From positions 310,001-374,000 of the forward strand of contig JAVJRG010000012.1 in NCBI GenBank assembly GCA_040218535.1: a stretch of 64,000 nt of DNA. The letters run 5' to 3'. Shown here in pieces: positions 8,092 through 14,943 of the stretch; within the stretch, counting starts at the first letter, position 1; every line of letters begins with the position of its first letter. The notes under the pieces are model-generated. The model was given only the letters and a program-made list of their open reading frames with translations. It ran no database searches and was not told the DNA's origin. Position numbers and translations under genes: made by a program. The DNA comes from Lacipirellulaceae bacterium. GTDB lineage: Bacteria; Planctomycetota; Planctomycetia; Pirellulales; Lacipirellulaceae.

Positions 8092-8331
8092 CGTTTCTTC
8101 CCCCTCAAATATTTGAAAACTCACGAGCCGAGCTGCGTCAGCACTCGGGTTAATCGGCTTCTCTAGGATTCCCTTTCGGGTGGTGAGGCTCGCGACGATG
8201 AGTTTCTTTTTCCCACTCGTAACAGATGTTTCATCTGTATCGGGTCGTGTGTAAAACCCGGGTGGGAATGCGGCCTTGCGACCAGTACAATTGGAGGAAT
8301 CGCTACAGTTTAACATTGCAAATTCGCTGTT

Positions 8332-8844
8332 ATGCCAACTGTCTTCATTGTAAAAACCTCAAAGAATCACGCTGCTTTATTTCCAAGCACATGTGTAGTT
8401 TGCGGGGAGAGTGAGCCAGATCACAACATGAAGGTTGTCACCAGTTCATTCGGCAGATGGATTAGTCTATTAGCCTATGGCTTACCTTTTTTGAGCTTTC
8501 ACTCAGTTGACGCTCCTGCACACAAAGATTGCATTTGGAGTCTTCACCGAAGAAGAGCATTCAGCTGGATATTGATAGCTGCCAACATCGCATTCGTGAT
8601 ATTCTGGATTTGGCCGAAGCTCAAAGGGGCTGTTCCGGCCTCAGCTGAGATATGGGTGATGTGTGGCACAGTCTTAGTGCTAATGATTCCCCAGCTTGTA
8701 TTCGAGTTTCTATATCCTCCCTCCTTCGACATTGAACTAGATGGCGCCTTAATCAGATACGAATTCACGAACGAGAAACTGGCTGAAGATTTCGCGGAAA
8801 ACAATCAGAACGCCGAATTATTCGACGTAGACACTAGATTCTGA
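8332..8844 (+). CDS. Orphan membrane protein with CxxC motif, low GC
   Basis: A 170-residue hypothetical protein. A CVVCGES zinc-knuckle-like motif lies near residue 21. Two hydrophobic helices follow at about residues 79-94 and 107-126, and then a short soluble tail. The codon use is clearly more AT-rich than that of its neighbours, with many AAA, ATT and TTA codons, which suggests recent acquisition. It stands alone between the small secreted genes (opposite strand) and top6B. A single CxxC pair could be half of a zinc site completed in a dimer. I do not recognise a family. Confidence 0.6.
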
Positions 8845-8906
8845 CTTTCAACAGTTGCAGAGATCTCTCTCTACGACTGCTAAAACTTCATAGATATTCA
8901 CTCCTC

Positions 8907-11060
8907 ATGGCCAAGAAGAAACGCAAGAAGAAAGTTGCAGCGAAAAGCAAGACCTCCGCCACGCCTCGCAAGAAAAAGCGAAAGAAGAAGGTCAAACGGA
9001 CGCCCGCGAGCCAATCGGCGGCAGCGTCGAACGGTGCGCCGAGCCAATCGGCGGCAGCGTCGAACGGTGCGCCGAGCCAGAATTCTAAATCGAGGCGGAA
9101 ACGTCGCGCCACGGCCCAGTCGATGGCCGCGTCGCAGCGCGACATTTCGGTCAGTGAGTTCTTCGCCAAGAACCGCCACCTCTTAGGTTTCGACAATCCG
9201 CGCAAAGCGCTGCTCACCACGATTAAGGAAGCGGTCGATAACTCGCTCGACGCCTGCGAGGAGGCAGGTATTTTGCCGGAGATTTGGGTCCACATCGAAC
9301 AGACCGGCAACGATCGCTACAAGGTGGGCATCCAAGACAATGGGCCGGGGATTCTCAAGAAGCAGATCCCGCTAATCTTCGGTAAGTTGCTCTATGGCTC
9401 GAAATTCCACCGCCTACGGCAAAGTCGGGGGCAGCAGGGCATCGGCATTAGCGCGGCGGGCATGTACGGCGTGCAGACGACCGGTAAGCCGATCAAGATC
9501 ATTTCGAAGGTTTCAGTGCGCAAGCCGGCTCACTACTACGAGCTGCAGATCGACACGAAGCATAACAAGCCGAAGATTATGAACGGCAAAGGGGACGGCG
9601 TTGATATTCCCCCTGGAGATAAAGGAATCAAGTACATCGAGAAGCACGGCATCGAGTGGGTCGAGCAGAAGAGCGGCACTCGCGTCACCATCGAACTGCA
9701 AGCCAAATACAACCGCGGCCGCGGCAGTGTCGATGAGTACCTGGAGCAAACAGCCATCGCCAACCCACACGTAACGCTGCACTACACGGACCCCGACGAC
9801 AACACCCGAGATTATCCGCGTTCAACCGAACAGCTTCCGCCTGAGCCGAAAGAAATTTTGCCGCACCCTTACGGTGTTGAGCTGGGCCGGCTCGCCGCGA
9901 TGCTACAGGACGCGGAAGGGATGACCGTTTCGCAGTTTCTCACTGGGAACTTCTCTCGCGTTACGCCTGCGGTGGCGAGAAAAGTTTGCGAGAAGGCGGG
10001 GATCTCCACGCGGGCAAACTCCAAAAAAATGGCACGCCAAGAAGCCGACGCGCTCTATCACGCGATTCAAGAGACGAAGATTTCCAACCCTTCAACCGAT
10101 TGCATCTGTCCGATTGGTGAAGAGCTGATCCTCAAGGGATTGCATCAAGTGGTGCCAGGTGAGTTCTACGCCGCGGCAACGCGGCCGCCGGGCGTCTATC
10201 GCGGGAATCCGTTTCAGATCGAAGTAGGACTCGCTTACGGTGGAGCGGCACCCGCACAAAACGTCACCAAAGAGCTTCTCCACGAGTTGCTCGACGAGAC
10301 CGATGCGCGTACCTGCCGTCAGTTCCTGATCAACACGTTCAACGGCATGGGAGCGGAGGCGGCGGATAAAATTCTCAAAGCAGCCAAGCTCGGCACGAGG
10401 CAGTCGCCCTCGAAGCTCACTCCCAAGCAGCGGGCCGGACTGCTCGACGCGATGAAGAACGTAAACATCAGCGAGGGCCAGTCGATGAACGTCCTCCGGC
10501 TTGCCAACCGCGTCCCGTTACAGTTTCAACATGGTGCTTGTGCAATCACACAAAGCGTGATCGGCAACAACTGGCGGAGCTATGGTCTCAGCCAATCCCG
10601 CGGCAGCTTACCCAAAGGCCCGGTTAGCGTAATGGTCCACATCGCTAGCGTCTGGGTGCCGTTCACGAGCGAATCGAAGGAAGCGGTTGCCAGCTACGAC
10701 GAGATTCAGAAAGAGATTCGTCTCGGTTTGCAGGCGGTGGGCAGAAAACTCGGCATGTATCTCCGCCGCCGCTTGAAGGTTCGGCAACAAACCGATCGCC
10801 GCGAAGTCTTCCTACGTTATCTAAAAGAAGTTGCCACCGCCGTCAACGAAATCAACGGCACCAAGCGCGATGAGCTCTACGACCAACTGGTAAAAGTCGC
10901 CAAGAAGCGCACCGCTGAAGCAGACATGGTGATGGACGACCGAGGGCGAAAGATCGATCAAGAAATGGATCTCGGCGAAAACGTGCTGATTGTCGACCCC
11001 GGAGAGAGTGAACATCACATCAACCGCGTGGCGACCTCGGCTAACGACGAGGAAGAATAA
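8907..11060 (+). CDS. top6B: DNA topoisomerase VI subunit B (GHKL ATPase)
   Basis: ATPase subunit of the type IIB topoisomerase that relaxes and decatenates duplex DNA by passing one duplex through a break made by subunit A. Of 717 residues, the GHKL fold is clear: [14 protein letters not shown] (108-121, with the Mg-binding Asn112), DNGPG (144-148) and the glycine loop [15 protein letters not shown] (about 173-187). A transducer domain follows. The first 75 residues are a Lys/Arg-rich, low-complexity extension, histone-tail-like and not part of the archaeal core. It contains a perfect 33-bp tandem duplication encoding [11 protein letters not shown] twice. The partner subunit lies 660 bp downstream on the same strand. 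Confidence 0.96.
9008..9073 (+). repeat. 33-bp perfect tandem duplication inside top6B
   Basis: Two identical 33-nt units (9008-9040 and 9041-9073) lie in frame in the disordered basic N-terminal tail of subunit B. They encode the 11-residue unit [11 protein letters not shown] twice. The copies show no visible substitutions, pointing to a recent slippage event or a variable-length tract. Confidence 0.9.
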
Positions 11061-11063
11061 CGC

Positions 11064-11675
11064 ATGGCCGAGAAGAATAAGGAAGGTACAGAGAAATCAT
11101 CGCCGGATACTTTAACGGACGTCATTGATCAACTTGAGGAGAAAGCCGGCGAGGATGGTGAACTTACTGTGCAAGACGCGCTCGATGAGTTTGCAGGGCG
11201 TGTTTTCGGACCTCTATTGGTGATTCCCGCGATGGTCGTGGTGACGCCGTTGGGAGCCGTGCCGACAATTCCTACGGCCATGGCCGTGTTTATCGTTCTA
11301 ATTGCCTCCCAGGCGTTATTTGGGAAGAAGTATCCTTGGCTTCCAAATCTCATCACTGAACGAAGCGTGGAAGAATCACAACTGAAAGAGTCGATGAAGA
11401 AGTTTCGCCCGTGGGCAAAATGGATTGATGCAGTACTCAAGCCGCGGCTGAAGTGGCTTGTCGAAGGCCCAATGAAATATGTAATCGCACTGGTTTGCTT
11501 GCTAATGGCAGCAGCTATTCCACCTTTGGAGCTTGCCCCCTTTGCCTGCTTTATTCCAGGATCAGCCGTACTGCTGTTGGGGCTTGCAATGATGGCGAAA
11601 GACGGCTTAGCAGGAGCCTTAGGGTTGGTGGCGTCGGTTGGTGCCTTGTTTGTTGGCGGACGATGGTTGATCTAG
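11064..11675 (+). CDS. ExoD-family membrane protein
   Basis: A 203-residue protein that fits the exopolysaccharide synthesis ExoD family (PF06055). An acidic cytoplasmic N-terminus (about 60 residues) leads into membrane segments around GPLLVIPAMVVVTPLGAVP, with the family-like PTIPTAMAVFIVLIASQALFG. Two more hydrophobic segments lie near the C-terminus. The family is linked to exopolysaccharide production in rhizobia, but its biochemical activity is not established. The gene starts 3 bp after the top6B stop and ends 45 bp before top6A, so it appears to be part of the topoisomerase VI operon. That position is unusual for a membrane protein. Confidence 0.82.
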   Translation: MAEKNKEGTEKSSPDTLTDVIDQLEEKAGEDGELTVQDALDEFAGRVFGPLLVIPAMVVVTPLGAVPTIPTAMAVFIVLIASQALFGKKYPWLPNLITERSVEESQLKESMKKFRPWAKWIDAVLKPRLKWLVEGPMKYVIALVCLLMAAAIPPLELAPFACFIPGSAVLLLGLAMMAKDGLAGALGLVASVGALFVGGRWLI

Positions 11676-11720
11676 AACTTACTCAGAATCACTTGATTAA
11701 GGACGTATACGAAACAAATC

Positions 11721-12875
11721 ATGGCCAAGAAGAAACCAACCAAATCCGCCGGCACCAAGACCCGCGTCAAGCTCACCCCGCGTGACAAAAAAACGATGGC
11801 AGCCCTCACCGGGCTGGCCGACGGGGTAGTCCGTGCCGCCACGGCCAAGCGTGACCCTTATGTCGATATCCCCAGCCGAACGCTTTCCAATGTGAAGTAT
11901 TCGCCGCGGAAGAAGATCATCGAGATGGGCAACAACAAGAACCGACGGCAGTTGTTCGATCTTTCGCAAGCGAAAGCTTATATGCGGACGATGCTGGTCG
12001 CAAGCGGCTGTAAGAAGCTCTTGGAGCAAGGCAAGACGACCAGCCTCCGGGGTTTGTTTTACATGCTCAAGCACACCATTGAGGGGGCAAAGGAAAACAC
12101 ATTCGACGATCAGAACGAGTGCGACACGATCATCGAAGATACCGAGGTGCTGCTGAACAGTATCCGCGAGGAATTGCACCTGTACGCGGAAAATCGTGGC
12201 GCGATGGTAGGGAATATCACGCTCACGGATCGTGGCGATACGATCGATTGCCGACGGATGGGCTCAGGAGGCTACGCGATCCCCTCGATTGTCGAGCCGG
12301 AGATTATCGAGCTTACCAAGAAGAACTGTGATGCGAAATTCATCCTTCATGTCGAAAAAGGAACCGTCTGGCAACGGTTTAATGAAGATCGCTTCTGGGA
12401 GAAACACAACTGCATTCTCACGCACGGTTCAGGGCAACCGCCACGGGGCGTGAGGCGAATGCTCAATCGTCTGCACAACGAGTTGAAACTGCCGGTCTAT
12501 TGCGTGCTCGATAACGACCCCTGGGGATACTACATCTACAGCGTTATCAAACAGGGCTCAATCAACTTGGCATTTGAGTCGCAAAGGATGGCGATCCCCG
12601 AGGCGAAGTACCTCGGCCTACGAAGCATCGATTACACGCGTTGCGACCTGTCTGACAGCGTGAAAATCTCGCTCAACGAAACCGACAAGAAACGCGCTAA
12701 GCAGATCGCCAAGTATCCCTGGTTCGAGAAAAAGCCGAAGTGGCAACGCGAAATCAAAAAGATGCTCGACAACGATTTTAAGCTGGAAGTCGAATCGTTG
12801 ATCTCCAAAGACATCAGCTACGTTACGGAGACCTATGTACCAGAGCGATTGGATGCTCGGGATTGGCTGGATTAG
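11721..12875 (+). CDS. top6A: DNA topoisomerase VI subunit A (Spo11-like)
   Basis: Catalytic DNA-cleaving subunit. Of 384 residues, the winged-helix domain carries the catalytic tyrosine, by alignment with the Spo11 signature most likely Tyr114 in TSLRGLFYML. The Toprim domain is intact, with Glu in FILHVEKGTVWQRF and the acidic pair in VLDNDPWGYYIY (usually DGDPYG), so the metal site should work. The N-terminal 30 residues are basic, like those of subunit B. Together with top6B it should form an A2B2 topoisomerase VI. This enzyme is typical of archaea and plants and found in scattered bacteria. The stop is followed directly by an inverted-repeat arm at 12877. Confidence 0.96.
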   Translation: MAKKKPTKSAGTKTRVKLTPRDKKTMAALTGLADGVVRAATAKRDPYVDIPSRTLSNVKYSPRKKIIEMGNNKNRRQLFDLSQAKAYMRTMLVASGCKKLLEQGKTTSLRGLFYMLKHTIEGAKENTFDDQNECDTIIEDTEVLLNSIREELHLYAENRGAMVGNITLTDRGDTIDCRRMGSGGYAIPSIVEPEIIELTKKNCDAKFILHVEKGTVWQRFNEDRFWEKHNCILTHGSGQPPRGVRRMLNRLHNELKLPVYCVLDNDPWGYYIYSVIKQGSINLAFESQRMAIPEAKYLGLRSIDYTRCDLSDSVKISLNETDKKRAKQIAKYPWFEKKPKWQREIKKMLDNDFKLEVESLISKDISYVTETYVPERLDARDWLD

Positions 12876-12876
12876 G

Positions 12877-13438
12877 TTTTTGACGCAAAGACGCAGAGGA
12901 CGCGAAGAATCGCAAAGAAACCAATGACAAGAGAATTGACGAGATGTGGTGATAATCGGATCGTGATTCATCGTTACCAACAAAGCGCGTCACCCCCCAG
13001 CTTCGAATCCCAACCTTTCGTCTGCATTCTCATAAGTGCGGATCGAGCACGTGACCAAAGAGAAAACGAAGCTATCTGCGATCTTCTAGTCGCTAACAAT
13101 TGTCGCTACTTTCTTAGTTGGGGAGTAGATGCCGAAGATTGGCACGACACAATGGATTATGCCTATCTTGGATCTGATCCAAACTATGCTCCTCCAAACA
13201 GTCGCCACGTCATGACTAGTTGGCATAACGACGAAACCCTGAGTGACGTCGCCTTCTTCGCAAAGAACTGCACTAACTTCGACCAGCACGAGTTTCACAA
13301 TTTTTTGGTTCTCATCATCGGCGACGATGAACAGCTTGAACAAGAAGTCGAGGCGGCTCTAGTCTCTGAGTTTGCAACCAAATAGCAGCTAGTTTCTCTG
13401 CGATTCTTCGCGTTCTTTGCCTCTTTGCGTCAGAAAAT
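12877..13438. repeat. Inverted-repeat pair bracketing one small gene
   Basis: Left arm 12877-12921 and right arm 13391-13438 are inverted copies agreeing at about 34 of 38 aligned positions. Both contain GACGCAAAGA and CGCGAAGAATCGCA. The left arm begins 2 bp after the top6A stop; the right arm ends about 20 bp before the symporter start. They enclose only the gene at 12924-13385. A related half-copy (TTTGACGCAAAGGCGCAAAG) follows the RND gene near 22465. Confidence 0.85.
12924..13385 (+). CDS. Orphan cytoplasmic protein inside an inverted-repeat cassette
   Basis: A 153-residue soluble hypothetical protein with no signal peptide. The C-terminal two thirds look folded and conserved in style: PFVCILISADR, an NNCRYFLSWGVDAEDWHD segment, and MTSWHNDETLSDVAFFA. 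Acidic and His residues there could form a small alpha/beta domain. It has no obvious catalytic signature. A GTG at 12963 is an alternative start. The gene fills the space between two long inverted arms (12877-12921, 13391-13438), which suggests that gene and arms move or duplicate as a unit. It is moderately AT-richer than its flanks. I cannot name a family with confidence. Confidence 0.6.
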   Translation: MTRELTRCGDNRIVIHRYQQSASPPSFESQPFVCILISADRARDQRENEAICDLLVANNCRYFLSWGVDAEDWHDTMDYAYLGSDPNYAPPNSRHVMTSWHNDETLSDVAFFAKNCTNFDQHEFHNFLVLIIGDDEQLEQEVEAALVSEFATK

Positions 13439-13458
13439 ACTTTGTAAAGCTTTGCGAT

Positions 13459-14943
13459 ATGATTGCCGCAACATTCAGCACGCTCAACTACACAATTCTC
13501 TTCGTCTACCTCGCCGTCATGTTCGCCTGCGGCATTTATCTCGCAGGGCGGCAGAAGAACACGGACGACTATTTTCTTGCTGGGCGGAAAATGCCTTGGC
13601 TGGTCGTGGCGATGAGTATGTTTGCCTCGCTGACGAGTGCAACTTCCTACATGGGATATCCCGGGCAGGCATACGGCGGGAACTGCTCGATGCTTATGGT
13701 CGGGGTGGCTAGCATCTTGGTAGCGCCGGTGCTGATCTTGGTTTTCTATCCCTTCTACCGTCGGCTGGGCGTGACAACGTCATTTGAGTACGTCGACCAT
13801 CGCTTTGGTCGGACAGCGCGGCTTTGCGTGACGACGCTATTCCTGCTCGCAAGATTGGGTTGGTTAGGCGTGGTCATTTATTCGCCGGCACTGGCGATTT
13901 CAGTCGTCACGGGGATCAACCTTTACTGGGCGATTGTGTTGATGGGTGTTCTCTCAATCGCTTATACCACCCTCGGTGGCTTAGCCGCAGTGCTGTGGAC
14001 GGACTTGCTGCAGTTCCTCATTTTGGTAGCCGGGGCGATCTGGATTGCAATGACGCTCATCAATGCCGCTCCCGACGGGGCGACTGGAATTCTCCATGAA
14101 GCTCAATCCGCAGGCAAACTGTTCGACTGGAGCGTGAATCCTTTCGGCATGAGCGCGACGGTCATCCTGATTGCCTACTTCCTGAATCACATGCAAGACT
14201 ACGGCGTGGACCAAATCACGGTGCAGCGACTGATGTCGATTCCCACCTACGGCGGTATGGCGAAGGCGGCGATTTTTGATGCGGTATTTAACGTGATGAT
14301 CCTAGGGCTCTTGTTATTCCTCGGACTTGGCCTCTCCTCGTATTATCTCGCTCAGCCCGACATACTCCCCGAGGGAATATTCGGTGACAAGGTGCTGCCG
14401 TATTACATCATCACAGTGCTGCCCGACGGCATTTCTGGTTTGTTAATTACGGCACTCTTTGCGGCGGCAATGTCGAGCGTCGACTCGGGGGCAAACTCGC
14501 TAGCCACAGTCATCATCAACGACTTTGACCGCCCACTACGTTCTGAGCCCCGCACCGAAGCGGAAGAAATTCGCCTCGCACGGATTCTCACGATCCTCAT
14601 CGGCGGCCTCGCCATCGGGGCGGCATGTTACGCTGCCACGATGGAAGAGATCTTGAAGGCGGCGCTCGTACCTTTGAGTCTCTTCACGGGCCCGATTCTA
14701 GCGTTGTTCTTATTGGGTATGCTCACCCGCAAGGGGAACTTCTGGGCATGGGTCATCGCCTCTGCCGTGGCGATTCCCGCGACCTACTGGCTGCAAAGTT
14801 ACGAGAATGAAGCAGGCCAGTCGGTGCATTTCACTTGGTACTTTCCATTTGGATTTCTTATTTGTTTCTCGCTGAGCTTGCTTTTGAGCCTTTTCATGCC
14901 GGGCAAGGTTGCACAGAAAGAACTGACCGTATGGCGTGAATAA
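13459..14943 (+). CDS. Sodium:solute symporter family protein
   Basis: Secondary transporter of the SSS family (LeuT fold, about 13 membrane helices) that couples Na+ entry to uptake of a small solute. 494 residues from the ATG at 13459; a start 14 codons earlier would fall inside the repeat arm. Family features include the N-terminal DDYFLAGRKMPWLVVAMSMF and SATSYMGYPGQAYGGN region, and an AAAMSSVDSGANSLATV sodium-site helix at about residue 337. The substrate cannot be told from sequence; sialic acid, iodide, proline and pantothenate carriers share this fold. It appears monocistronic, followed by a stem-loop repeat and then the convergent dgkA. Confidence 0.88.
   Translation: MIAATFSTLNYTILFVYLAVMFACGIYLAGRQKNTDDYFLAGRKMPWLVVAMSMFASLTSATSYMGYPGQAYGGNCSMLMVGVASILVAPVLILVFYPFYRRLGVTTSFEYVDHRFGRTARLCVTTLFLLARLGWLGVVIYSPALAISVVTGINLYWAIVLMGVLSIAYTTLGGLAAVLWTDLLQFLILVAGAIWIAMTLINAAPDGATGILHEAQSAGKLFDWSVNPFGMSATVILIAYFLNHMQDYGVDQITVQRLMSIPTYGGMAKAAIFDAVFNVMILGLLLFLGLGLSSYYLAQPDILPEGIFGDKVLPYYIITVLPDGISGLLITALFAAAMSSVDSGANSLATVIINDFDRPLRSEPRTEAEEIRLARILTILIGGLAIGAACYAATMEEILKAALVPLSLFTGPILALFLLGMLTRKGNFWAWVIASAVAIPATYWLQSYENEAGQSVHFTWYFPFGFLICFSLSLLLSLFMPGKVAQKELTVWRE

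Follow-up and report, generated by a model that had tools for sequence, protein, structure and literature searches.

Why should a gene for a membrane protein stand between the two subunit genes of an archaeal-type topoisomerase, and what would that enzyme do in a planctomycete? We addressed these questions for a stretch of 64,000 nucleotides (the window) from a Lacipirellulaceae bacterium (assembly GCA_040218535.1, contig JAVJRG010000012.1, positions 310,001 to 374,000), in which the genes of DNA topoisomerase VI (Topo VI), top6B and top6A, flank a gene of the ExoD family. An earlier sequence-only reading had suggested that the membrane protein tethers DNA processing to the membrane, or that the three genes were transferred as a block. 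We consider it probable that the locus is a vertically inherited Topo VI operon, the enzyme being most likely an A2B2 decatenase, and that the ExoD gene is a later passenger without a functional tie to it.

The topoisomerase VI locus

The locus consists of three co-directional genes (window coordinates):

8907-11060, + strand: top6B, DNA topoisomerase VI subunit B (GHKL ATPase, transducer) with a K/R-rich N-terminal tail; open reading frame (ORF) of 717 aa, assigned by Pfam, NCBIfam, motifs and alignment
11064-11675, + strand: gene of a helical membrane protein of the ExoD family (PF06055), which we take for a passenger at the top6B-top6A junction; ORF of 203 aa, assigned by Pfam
11721-12875, + strand: top6A, DNA topoisomerase VI subunit A (Tyr114, Toprim); ORF of 384 aa, assigned by Pfam, NCBIfam, motifs and alignment

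Only 3 nt lie between the top6B stop and the start of the ExoD gene, and 45 nt separate the end of the latter from the top6A ATG. The position, strand and spacing of the genes were as the sequence-only reading had described them, both Topo VI subunits were intact, and the motifs it had named were confirmed and aligned to solved chains. Top6B matched NCBIfam NF003218 (DNA topoisomerase VI subunit B) with 676 bits (cut-off 274), comprised the Pfam domains HATPase_c and Topo-VIb_trans, and carried the motifs DNGPGI (from residue 144) and GQQGIGIS (from 175). It aligned to the chain 2q2e_B with an E of 4e-137 over residues 69-451 and 521-647. Top6A matched NF003333 with 551 bits (cut-off 465); this model is titled 'topoisomerase IV subunit A', yet its Pfam domains are those of Topo VI A, and Top6A itself contained TP6A_N and TOP6A-Spo11_Toprim. 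Tyr114 and the motifs VEKGT (from 211) and DNDPWG (from 264) were present; in the alignment with 2zbk_A (E 1.7e-73), a solved chain of Topo VI A, Tyr114 pairs with the second of the two Tyr residues in LYY. Judged by these sequence features, the pair qualifies as a Topo VI, with a B subunit bearing the GHKL ATPase and transducer and an A subunit bearing the active-site Tyr and the Toprim acidic residues. The ExoD protein matched PF06055 with 160.9 bits (cut-off 23.8) over profile positions 1-176 of 180, that is, over the whole domain. The window genome held this single ExoD match and one GyrA/ParC match. The nearest named relative that we found was its congener Adhaeretor mobilis HG15A2, with a 91% identical top6A.

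The sequence-only reading had taken the three genes for one transcript. Their co-transcription is plausible because the genes are intact, run in one direction and are separated by tiny gaps. A scan of positions 8300-13500 gave one promoter-like site (3.3 expected) and 14 terminator-like sites (7.0 expected).

Distribution of Topo VI in the order

In the bacterial domain as a whole, Topo VI is rare, and to this extent the word 'rare' in the sequence-only reading stood; it did not hold for the order Pirellulales. Among the 146 genomes drawn from this order, 136 had subunit B and 133 had subunit A, and in the window genome's family, Lacipirellulaceae, subunit B was present in 42 of 43. Topo VI is near-universal and standard in this planctomycete order. 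The two subunit genes lay far apart in several genomes, including the single-contig genomes G017, G081, G086, G088 and G105 (G numbers are our own). Allen and Maxwell (2024; PMC11302465), who describe the enzyme as occurring 'sporadically in bacteria', list Lacipirellulaceae, Pirellulaceae and Thermoguttaceae among its bearers.

Reciprocity of Topo VI and Topo IV

Both Topo VI subunits were missing from nine of the 146 genomes. Seven of the nine (G053, G113, G117, G121, G125, G137 and G140), all belonging to family f15, carried two near-full-length GyrA/ParC genes. The second copies were 33-35% identical to the GyrA of the window genome and had RGGRG near the C terminus; QxRGGKG, which we take to be the GyrA-box motif, occurred in none of the seven, against 33 of 33 GyrA rows. 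A second GyrB/ParE was found in all seven, in six of them on the same contig as parC, and each of the eight Topo VI genomes checked had one GyrB/ParE match. Absence of the GyrA box has served as a criterion for ParC (PMC11302465, section 14). With a GyrA paralogue lacking the canonical box and a second GyrB/ParE, the seven f15 genomes carry a second enzyme of type IIA, topoisomerase IV (Topo IV).

Among the 137 genomes that have one or both Topo VI subunits, none was seen with two full GyrA/ParC genes: three showed two low-scoring matches, G056 showed none, and the rest showed one. Fisher's exact test (0 of 136 subunit-B genomes versus 7 of 9) gave p = 1.6e-10, a value inflated by shared ancestry and obtained with the three double matches (G033, G090 and G145) treated as single; the fairer unit is the 33-row GyrA tree. 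On this tree, the Topo IV genomes fell into a clade of five (100/100) and a group (G140,(G133,G125)) (100/100, 100/99). G133, nested between the Topo IV genomes G125 and G140, has Topo VI and one GyrA/ParC match, which implies that the decatenase changed at least twice in f15, or that both enzymes coexisted for a time. The Topo VI of G133 did not take a settled place when its tree was rooted at the midpoint. In a tree of the best 30 of 148 matches in 198 class genomes, the ParC genes of f15 grouped in a single clade (100/100), and its sister was the ParC of family f105, which belongs to the same class (98/96). G036, which also lacks Topo VI, was considered as a second switch to Topo IV for its extra GyrB-like match on a 6.5-kb contig; the frame on this contig looked proteobacterial, the contig is a suspected contaminant, and the match was not counted.

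It seems to us reasonably likely that the type IIB enzyme Topo VI and the type IIA enzyme Topo IV replace each other in the order: no sampled genome was seen with both, the swap lies inside one family, and the ParC genes are nearest to those of another planctomycete lineage. The reciprocity at the level of the order supports Topo VI as the resident decatenase. This role has already been proposed by Allen and Maxwell; the reciprocal swap inside one family is an addition to their proposal. Neither the swap nor the ExoD arrangement is reported in the titles and abstract openings of the open-licence papers that our searches listed; PMC12684718 and PMC6167468 contain both 'topoisomerase VI' and 'ExoD', and an earlier mention is possible.

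The top6B-top6A junction

A comparison of synteny among planctomycetes, which the sequence-only reading had recommended, covered 95 loci with linked subunit genes, 34 from the window family and 61 from the other families of the order. The loci were chosen by hand from the subunit match tables; G164, G148, G135 and G160 were dropped, as top6A was absent from the stretch examined. By the distance between top6B stop and top6A start, 75 junctions were shorter than 250 bp (including that of G057, mis-measured at -1176 bp, an artefact), two were 250-400 bp and 18 were at least 400 bp long, 10 of these 18 in the window genome's family. The ExoD insert was sporadic: it occurred at four of the 95 junctions, in the window genome (G000), G024, G048 and G115, all of one family. 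The insertion is not unique to the window genome, as three others carry it. In a second, overlapping set of 80 named loci, 9 of the 53 linked pairs had at least 400 bp between them, and ExoD was found at none of the 80. At the same place, A. mobilis carries an unrelated 159-aa ORF, and its genome has no ExoD match. The inserts in the other 14 long gaps were diverse:

G064, G102: GxxExxY/PDDEXK_3 genes
G029, G042: AbiEii-like nucleotidyltransferases
G091: DUF6498
G019: carrier-protein-like gene
G094: transposase fragment
G152, G153: toxin-antitoxin-like pairs, no cut-off passed; likewise beside ExoD in G048
G103 (taken as A. mobilis), G131, G119, G004, G090: ORFs without a family match

Pfam-matched inserts were present in 11 of the 18 long gaps, and all 11 lay on the top6 strand, the orientation to be expected where expression of the downstream subunit relies on read-through. 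We also observed that an 80-82-aa protein followed by a small protein recurs at the junctions of G048, G152 and G153 (L028 4040-4551; L237, L231). The small protein is ParE-like in G048 (Pfam E 0.047, under the cut-off) and had no match in G152 and G153; the pair looks like a toxin-antitoxin pair.

The junction was considered as an insertion hotspot, which was not shown. When 400 kb each of the A. mobilis and window genomes were compared, 40 of 141 collinear junctions differed by at least 400 bp (40 in 175 kb aligned, 2.29 per 10 kb). Around top6, three of five junctions did so (3 in 10.4 kb aligned, 2.88 per 10 kb), and the background between the two Adhaeretor genomes is equally high; the top6B-top6A junction itself is outside these three, both genomes having an insert there. 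It looks like a typical permissive spot.

Origin of the ExoD gene

The Topo VI of the window genome was sister to that of A. mobilis (100/100), and the two parts of top6A, analysed separately, kept this grouping (97/90 and 100/99). The four junction ExoDs formed one clade (97/94), and their hosts did not form one group on the Topo VI tree, on which the carriers require at least three changes, with 29 ungrouped rows uncounted. An ExoD match of any kind was found in 18 of the 146 order genomes. In the phylum draw, ExoD and Top6A were adjacent in none of the five other genomes with both (on different contigs in four, 1.4 Mb apart in one). The GC content at third codon positions (GC3) of the ExoD gene was 0.532, versus 0.706 in both top6 genes (window mean 0.628, standard deviation 0.056, 39 genes; z -1.7), and its codon-usage distance was reached by 3.4% of 380 background samples. 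Because the ExoD clade disagrees with the Topo VI tree of the hosts, the congener lacks ExoD, and GC3 and codon use deviate, we think it most likely that the ExoD gene and the topoisomerase came separately. A single ExoD lineage may have inserted repeatedly, or it may have inserted once, long ago, and then been lost many times. We must also note that recombination bringing in ExoD with flanking top6 sequence, hinted at by 150-nt windows of top6A, was rejected, since the trees of both top6A parts retain the A. mobilis grouping.

The predicted structure of the ExoD protein is that of a helical membrane protein (predicted local distance difference test score, pLDDT, 88). A Foldseek comparison of the model with the PDB gave no match at E 0.001 or better, and VIA-align gave Z up to 8.2, a range that the notes of the tool call uninformative for helical bundles. 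The only sequence match to solved chains was LptF (E 0.0019). Relatives of the protein were found on 121 of 72,556 plasmid records, all distant (<60% identity), many of them alphaproteobacterial.

Proposed role and alternative explanations

In the arrangement that we propose, the locus would be the normal, vertically inherited Topo VI operon of the lineage. Top6A and Top6B would form an A2B2 enzyme beside gyrase, most likely a dedicated decatenase for newly replicated chromosomes, doing the job that Topo IV does elsewhere. The decatenase role, which we infer for the living cell, fits both the preference of Methanosarcina mazei Topo VI for decatenation (PMC8837201) and the suggestion of Allen and Maxwell. 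The ExoD gene would be a passenger that entered a permissive intergenic spot later. Its co-transcription is probable, since top6A stays joined to the operon promoter when the insert runs in the same direction, and we infer no physical interaction between its product and Topo VI.

A functional complex of the three gene products, in which ExoD anchors either Topo VI or the replicated chromosome at the membrane, would account for the gene order, the gaps of 3 and 45 nt and the predicted helical membrane protein, as well as for the recurrence of the arrangement in four genomes from three genera of the window family. Nevertheless, 91 of the 95 linked loci do without ExoD, the congener has Topo VI and no ExoD, 128 of the 146 order genomes have no ExoD match, relatives with ExoD elsewhere retain Topo VI, and many unrelated genes occupy the junction. 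Tethering, one of the two ideas of the sequence-only reading, is very improbable. Movement of top6B-exoD-top6A between species as a unit is also very unlikely: it agrees with a single clade of junction ExoDs in hosts that are not one, and three 150-nt windows of top6A are slightly closer to the other carriers of the arrangement than to the congener, but the Topo VI tree and the trees of two parts of top6A place the window Topo VI with A. mobilis, the junction ExoDs group together apart from the grouping of their hosts' Topo VI, and flanking genes on both sides are collinear with A. mobilis. For the window genome, block transfer is largely refuted.

A single ancient arrival of ExoD at the junction, in an ancestor of the family, followed by many losses and replacements, would explain the monophyly of the junction ExoDs and the glyoxalase-like gene that stands next to ExoD in both G024 and G115 (Pfam match tested for G115 only). 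However, ExoD is missing from 30 of the family's 34 linked junctions, and the several changes required on the Topo VI tree also tell against it; we regard it as rather unlikely. As regards the enzyme, Topo VI might serve recombination, repair or anti-plasmid defence instead of chromosome decatenation: the model of the JetD defence nuclease matched Top6A weakly (E 1.5e-6), which accords with the presence of a Topo VI-like part in Wadjet (PMC13040014). We find this improbable, as both subunits are full Topo VI, and the near-universal presence of the enzyme in the order, reciprocal to that of Topo IV, is in keeping with a housekeeping decatenase.

Several observations weigh against the vertically inherited decatenase operon with a passenger. 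The Topo VI genomes G033, G090 and G145 show two GyrA/ParC matches, which we read as split genes from scores far below the others (that of G033 at a contig edge). In G027 and G036, neither Topo VI subunit was found and there was a single GyrA/ParC match, while their congeners have Topo VI; assembly gaps or a gyrase-only life may account for this. In the phylum draw, two or more GyrA/ParC matches were found in 15, one in 93 and none in 4 of the 112 genomes with Top6A; the corresponding numbers for the 134 genomes without Top6A were 72, 59 and 3. The 15 of 112 with two or more, and the 59 of 134 with one, suggest that beyond the order 'one decatenase' holds as a tendency, not as a law, and gyrase alone may suffice. 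As for the passenger, the clade of junction ExoDs in scattered hosts demands either several insertions into one and the same spot or a large number of losses, it is conceivable that this ExoD lineage prefers the junction, and the GC3 and codon use of the gene are no more than mildly unusual.

Repeat-bracketed genes and other neighbours of top6

Directly downstream of top6A, a single gene is enclosed by an inverted repeat:

12877-12921, + strand: left arm of the inverted repeat (45 nt, 89% complementary), which brackets the DUF7684 gene
12924-13385, + strand: DUF7684 gene, 153 aa, assigned by Pfam, without a counterpart at the same place in A. mobilis
13392-13436, - strand: right arm of the inverted repeat

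Repeats of this family also flank the junction ORF of A. mobilis that encodes 159 aa (43 nt, 79%). At the G064 and G102 junctions, the GxxExxY genes stand between inverted repeats of other kinds (distance between arms 464 nt with 94% and 518 nt with 97%), and arms of 20 nt enclose the glyoxalase-like gene of G024. The repeat-bracketed single genes, with repeats of 20-45 nt throughout, are located at window 12877-13436, L050 6395-6973, L040 4009-4540, L034 4788-5371 and L029 5817-6257. A profile of the Adhaeretor repeat located 12 copies over 879 kb; among these were two inward-facing pairs that enclose no gene. The sequences suggest small gene-carrying elements with inverted ends, possibly mobile; no target duplication was evident by eye, and no clean empty site was found. 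No such repeat was noticed beside ExoD in the window genome.

The DUF7684 gene and a sodium:solute symporter gene (within 12877-14943) have no counterparts at the same place in A. mobilis, and the GC3 of the former is low (0.477). Two further features lie at the upstream side:

8332-8844, + strand: ORF of 170 aa without a Pfam match, low GC3 (0.488), nothing corresponding at this position in A. mobilis
9007-9072, + strand: perfect 33-bp tandem duplication in the N-terminal tail of top6B

The Top6B tail (window 8907-9146) has 80 residues, 33% of them K/R. Among the 33 of 95 Top6B tails that were measurable, only those of the window genome and A. mobilis had at least 30% K/R over at least 40 residues.

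Significance and comparison with known systems

An archaeal-type decatenase is standard in one bacterial order and is missing in a few lineages of one family, where Topo IV is present. If true, the swap between Topo VI and Topo IV would allow the function of bacterial Topo VI to be tested in related species, since relatives that differ in their decatenase are natural experiments on its role. The tempting story of a membrane tether is removed for lack of support.

The ExoD protein has in common with rhizobial ExoD (PF06055) the Pfam family and the predicted helical membrane character; exoD mutants of Sinorhizobium meliloti make less exopolysaccharide and are sensitive to alkali (PMC1403797). 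The topoisomerase is the same enzyme that Allen and Maxwell treated in the three planctomycete families named above. Their sample comprised 17 bacterial species from 17 families; they found no Topo IV in Topo VI bearers outside Pseudomonadota and Terrabacteria, suggested that Topo VI compensates for the missing Topo IV, mentioned unpublished complementation of an Escherichia coli parE mutant by M. mazei Topo VI, and considered the role of Topo VI in bacteria still to be established (PMC11302465). A word search of the main text of that paper found 'operon', 'gene order' and 'planctomyc' all absent, and in the parts of it used here we encountered neither ExoD nor Pirellulaceae without Topo VI. 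The window enzyme has the same two subunits and domains as the archaeal Topo VI of M. mazei (2q2e) and Saccharolobus shibatae (2zbk), from which it differs by the basic N-terminal tail of Top6B. About 70 residues of Top6B, between 451 and 521, are unmatched in the alignment with 2q2e_B; perhaps they correspond to the helical bundle described by Allen and Maxwell in Pirellula staleyi.

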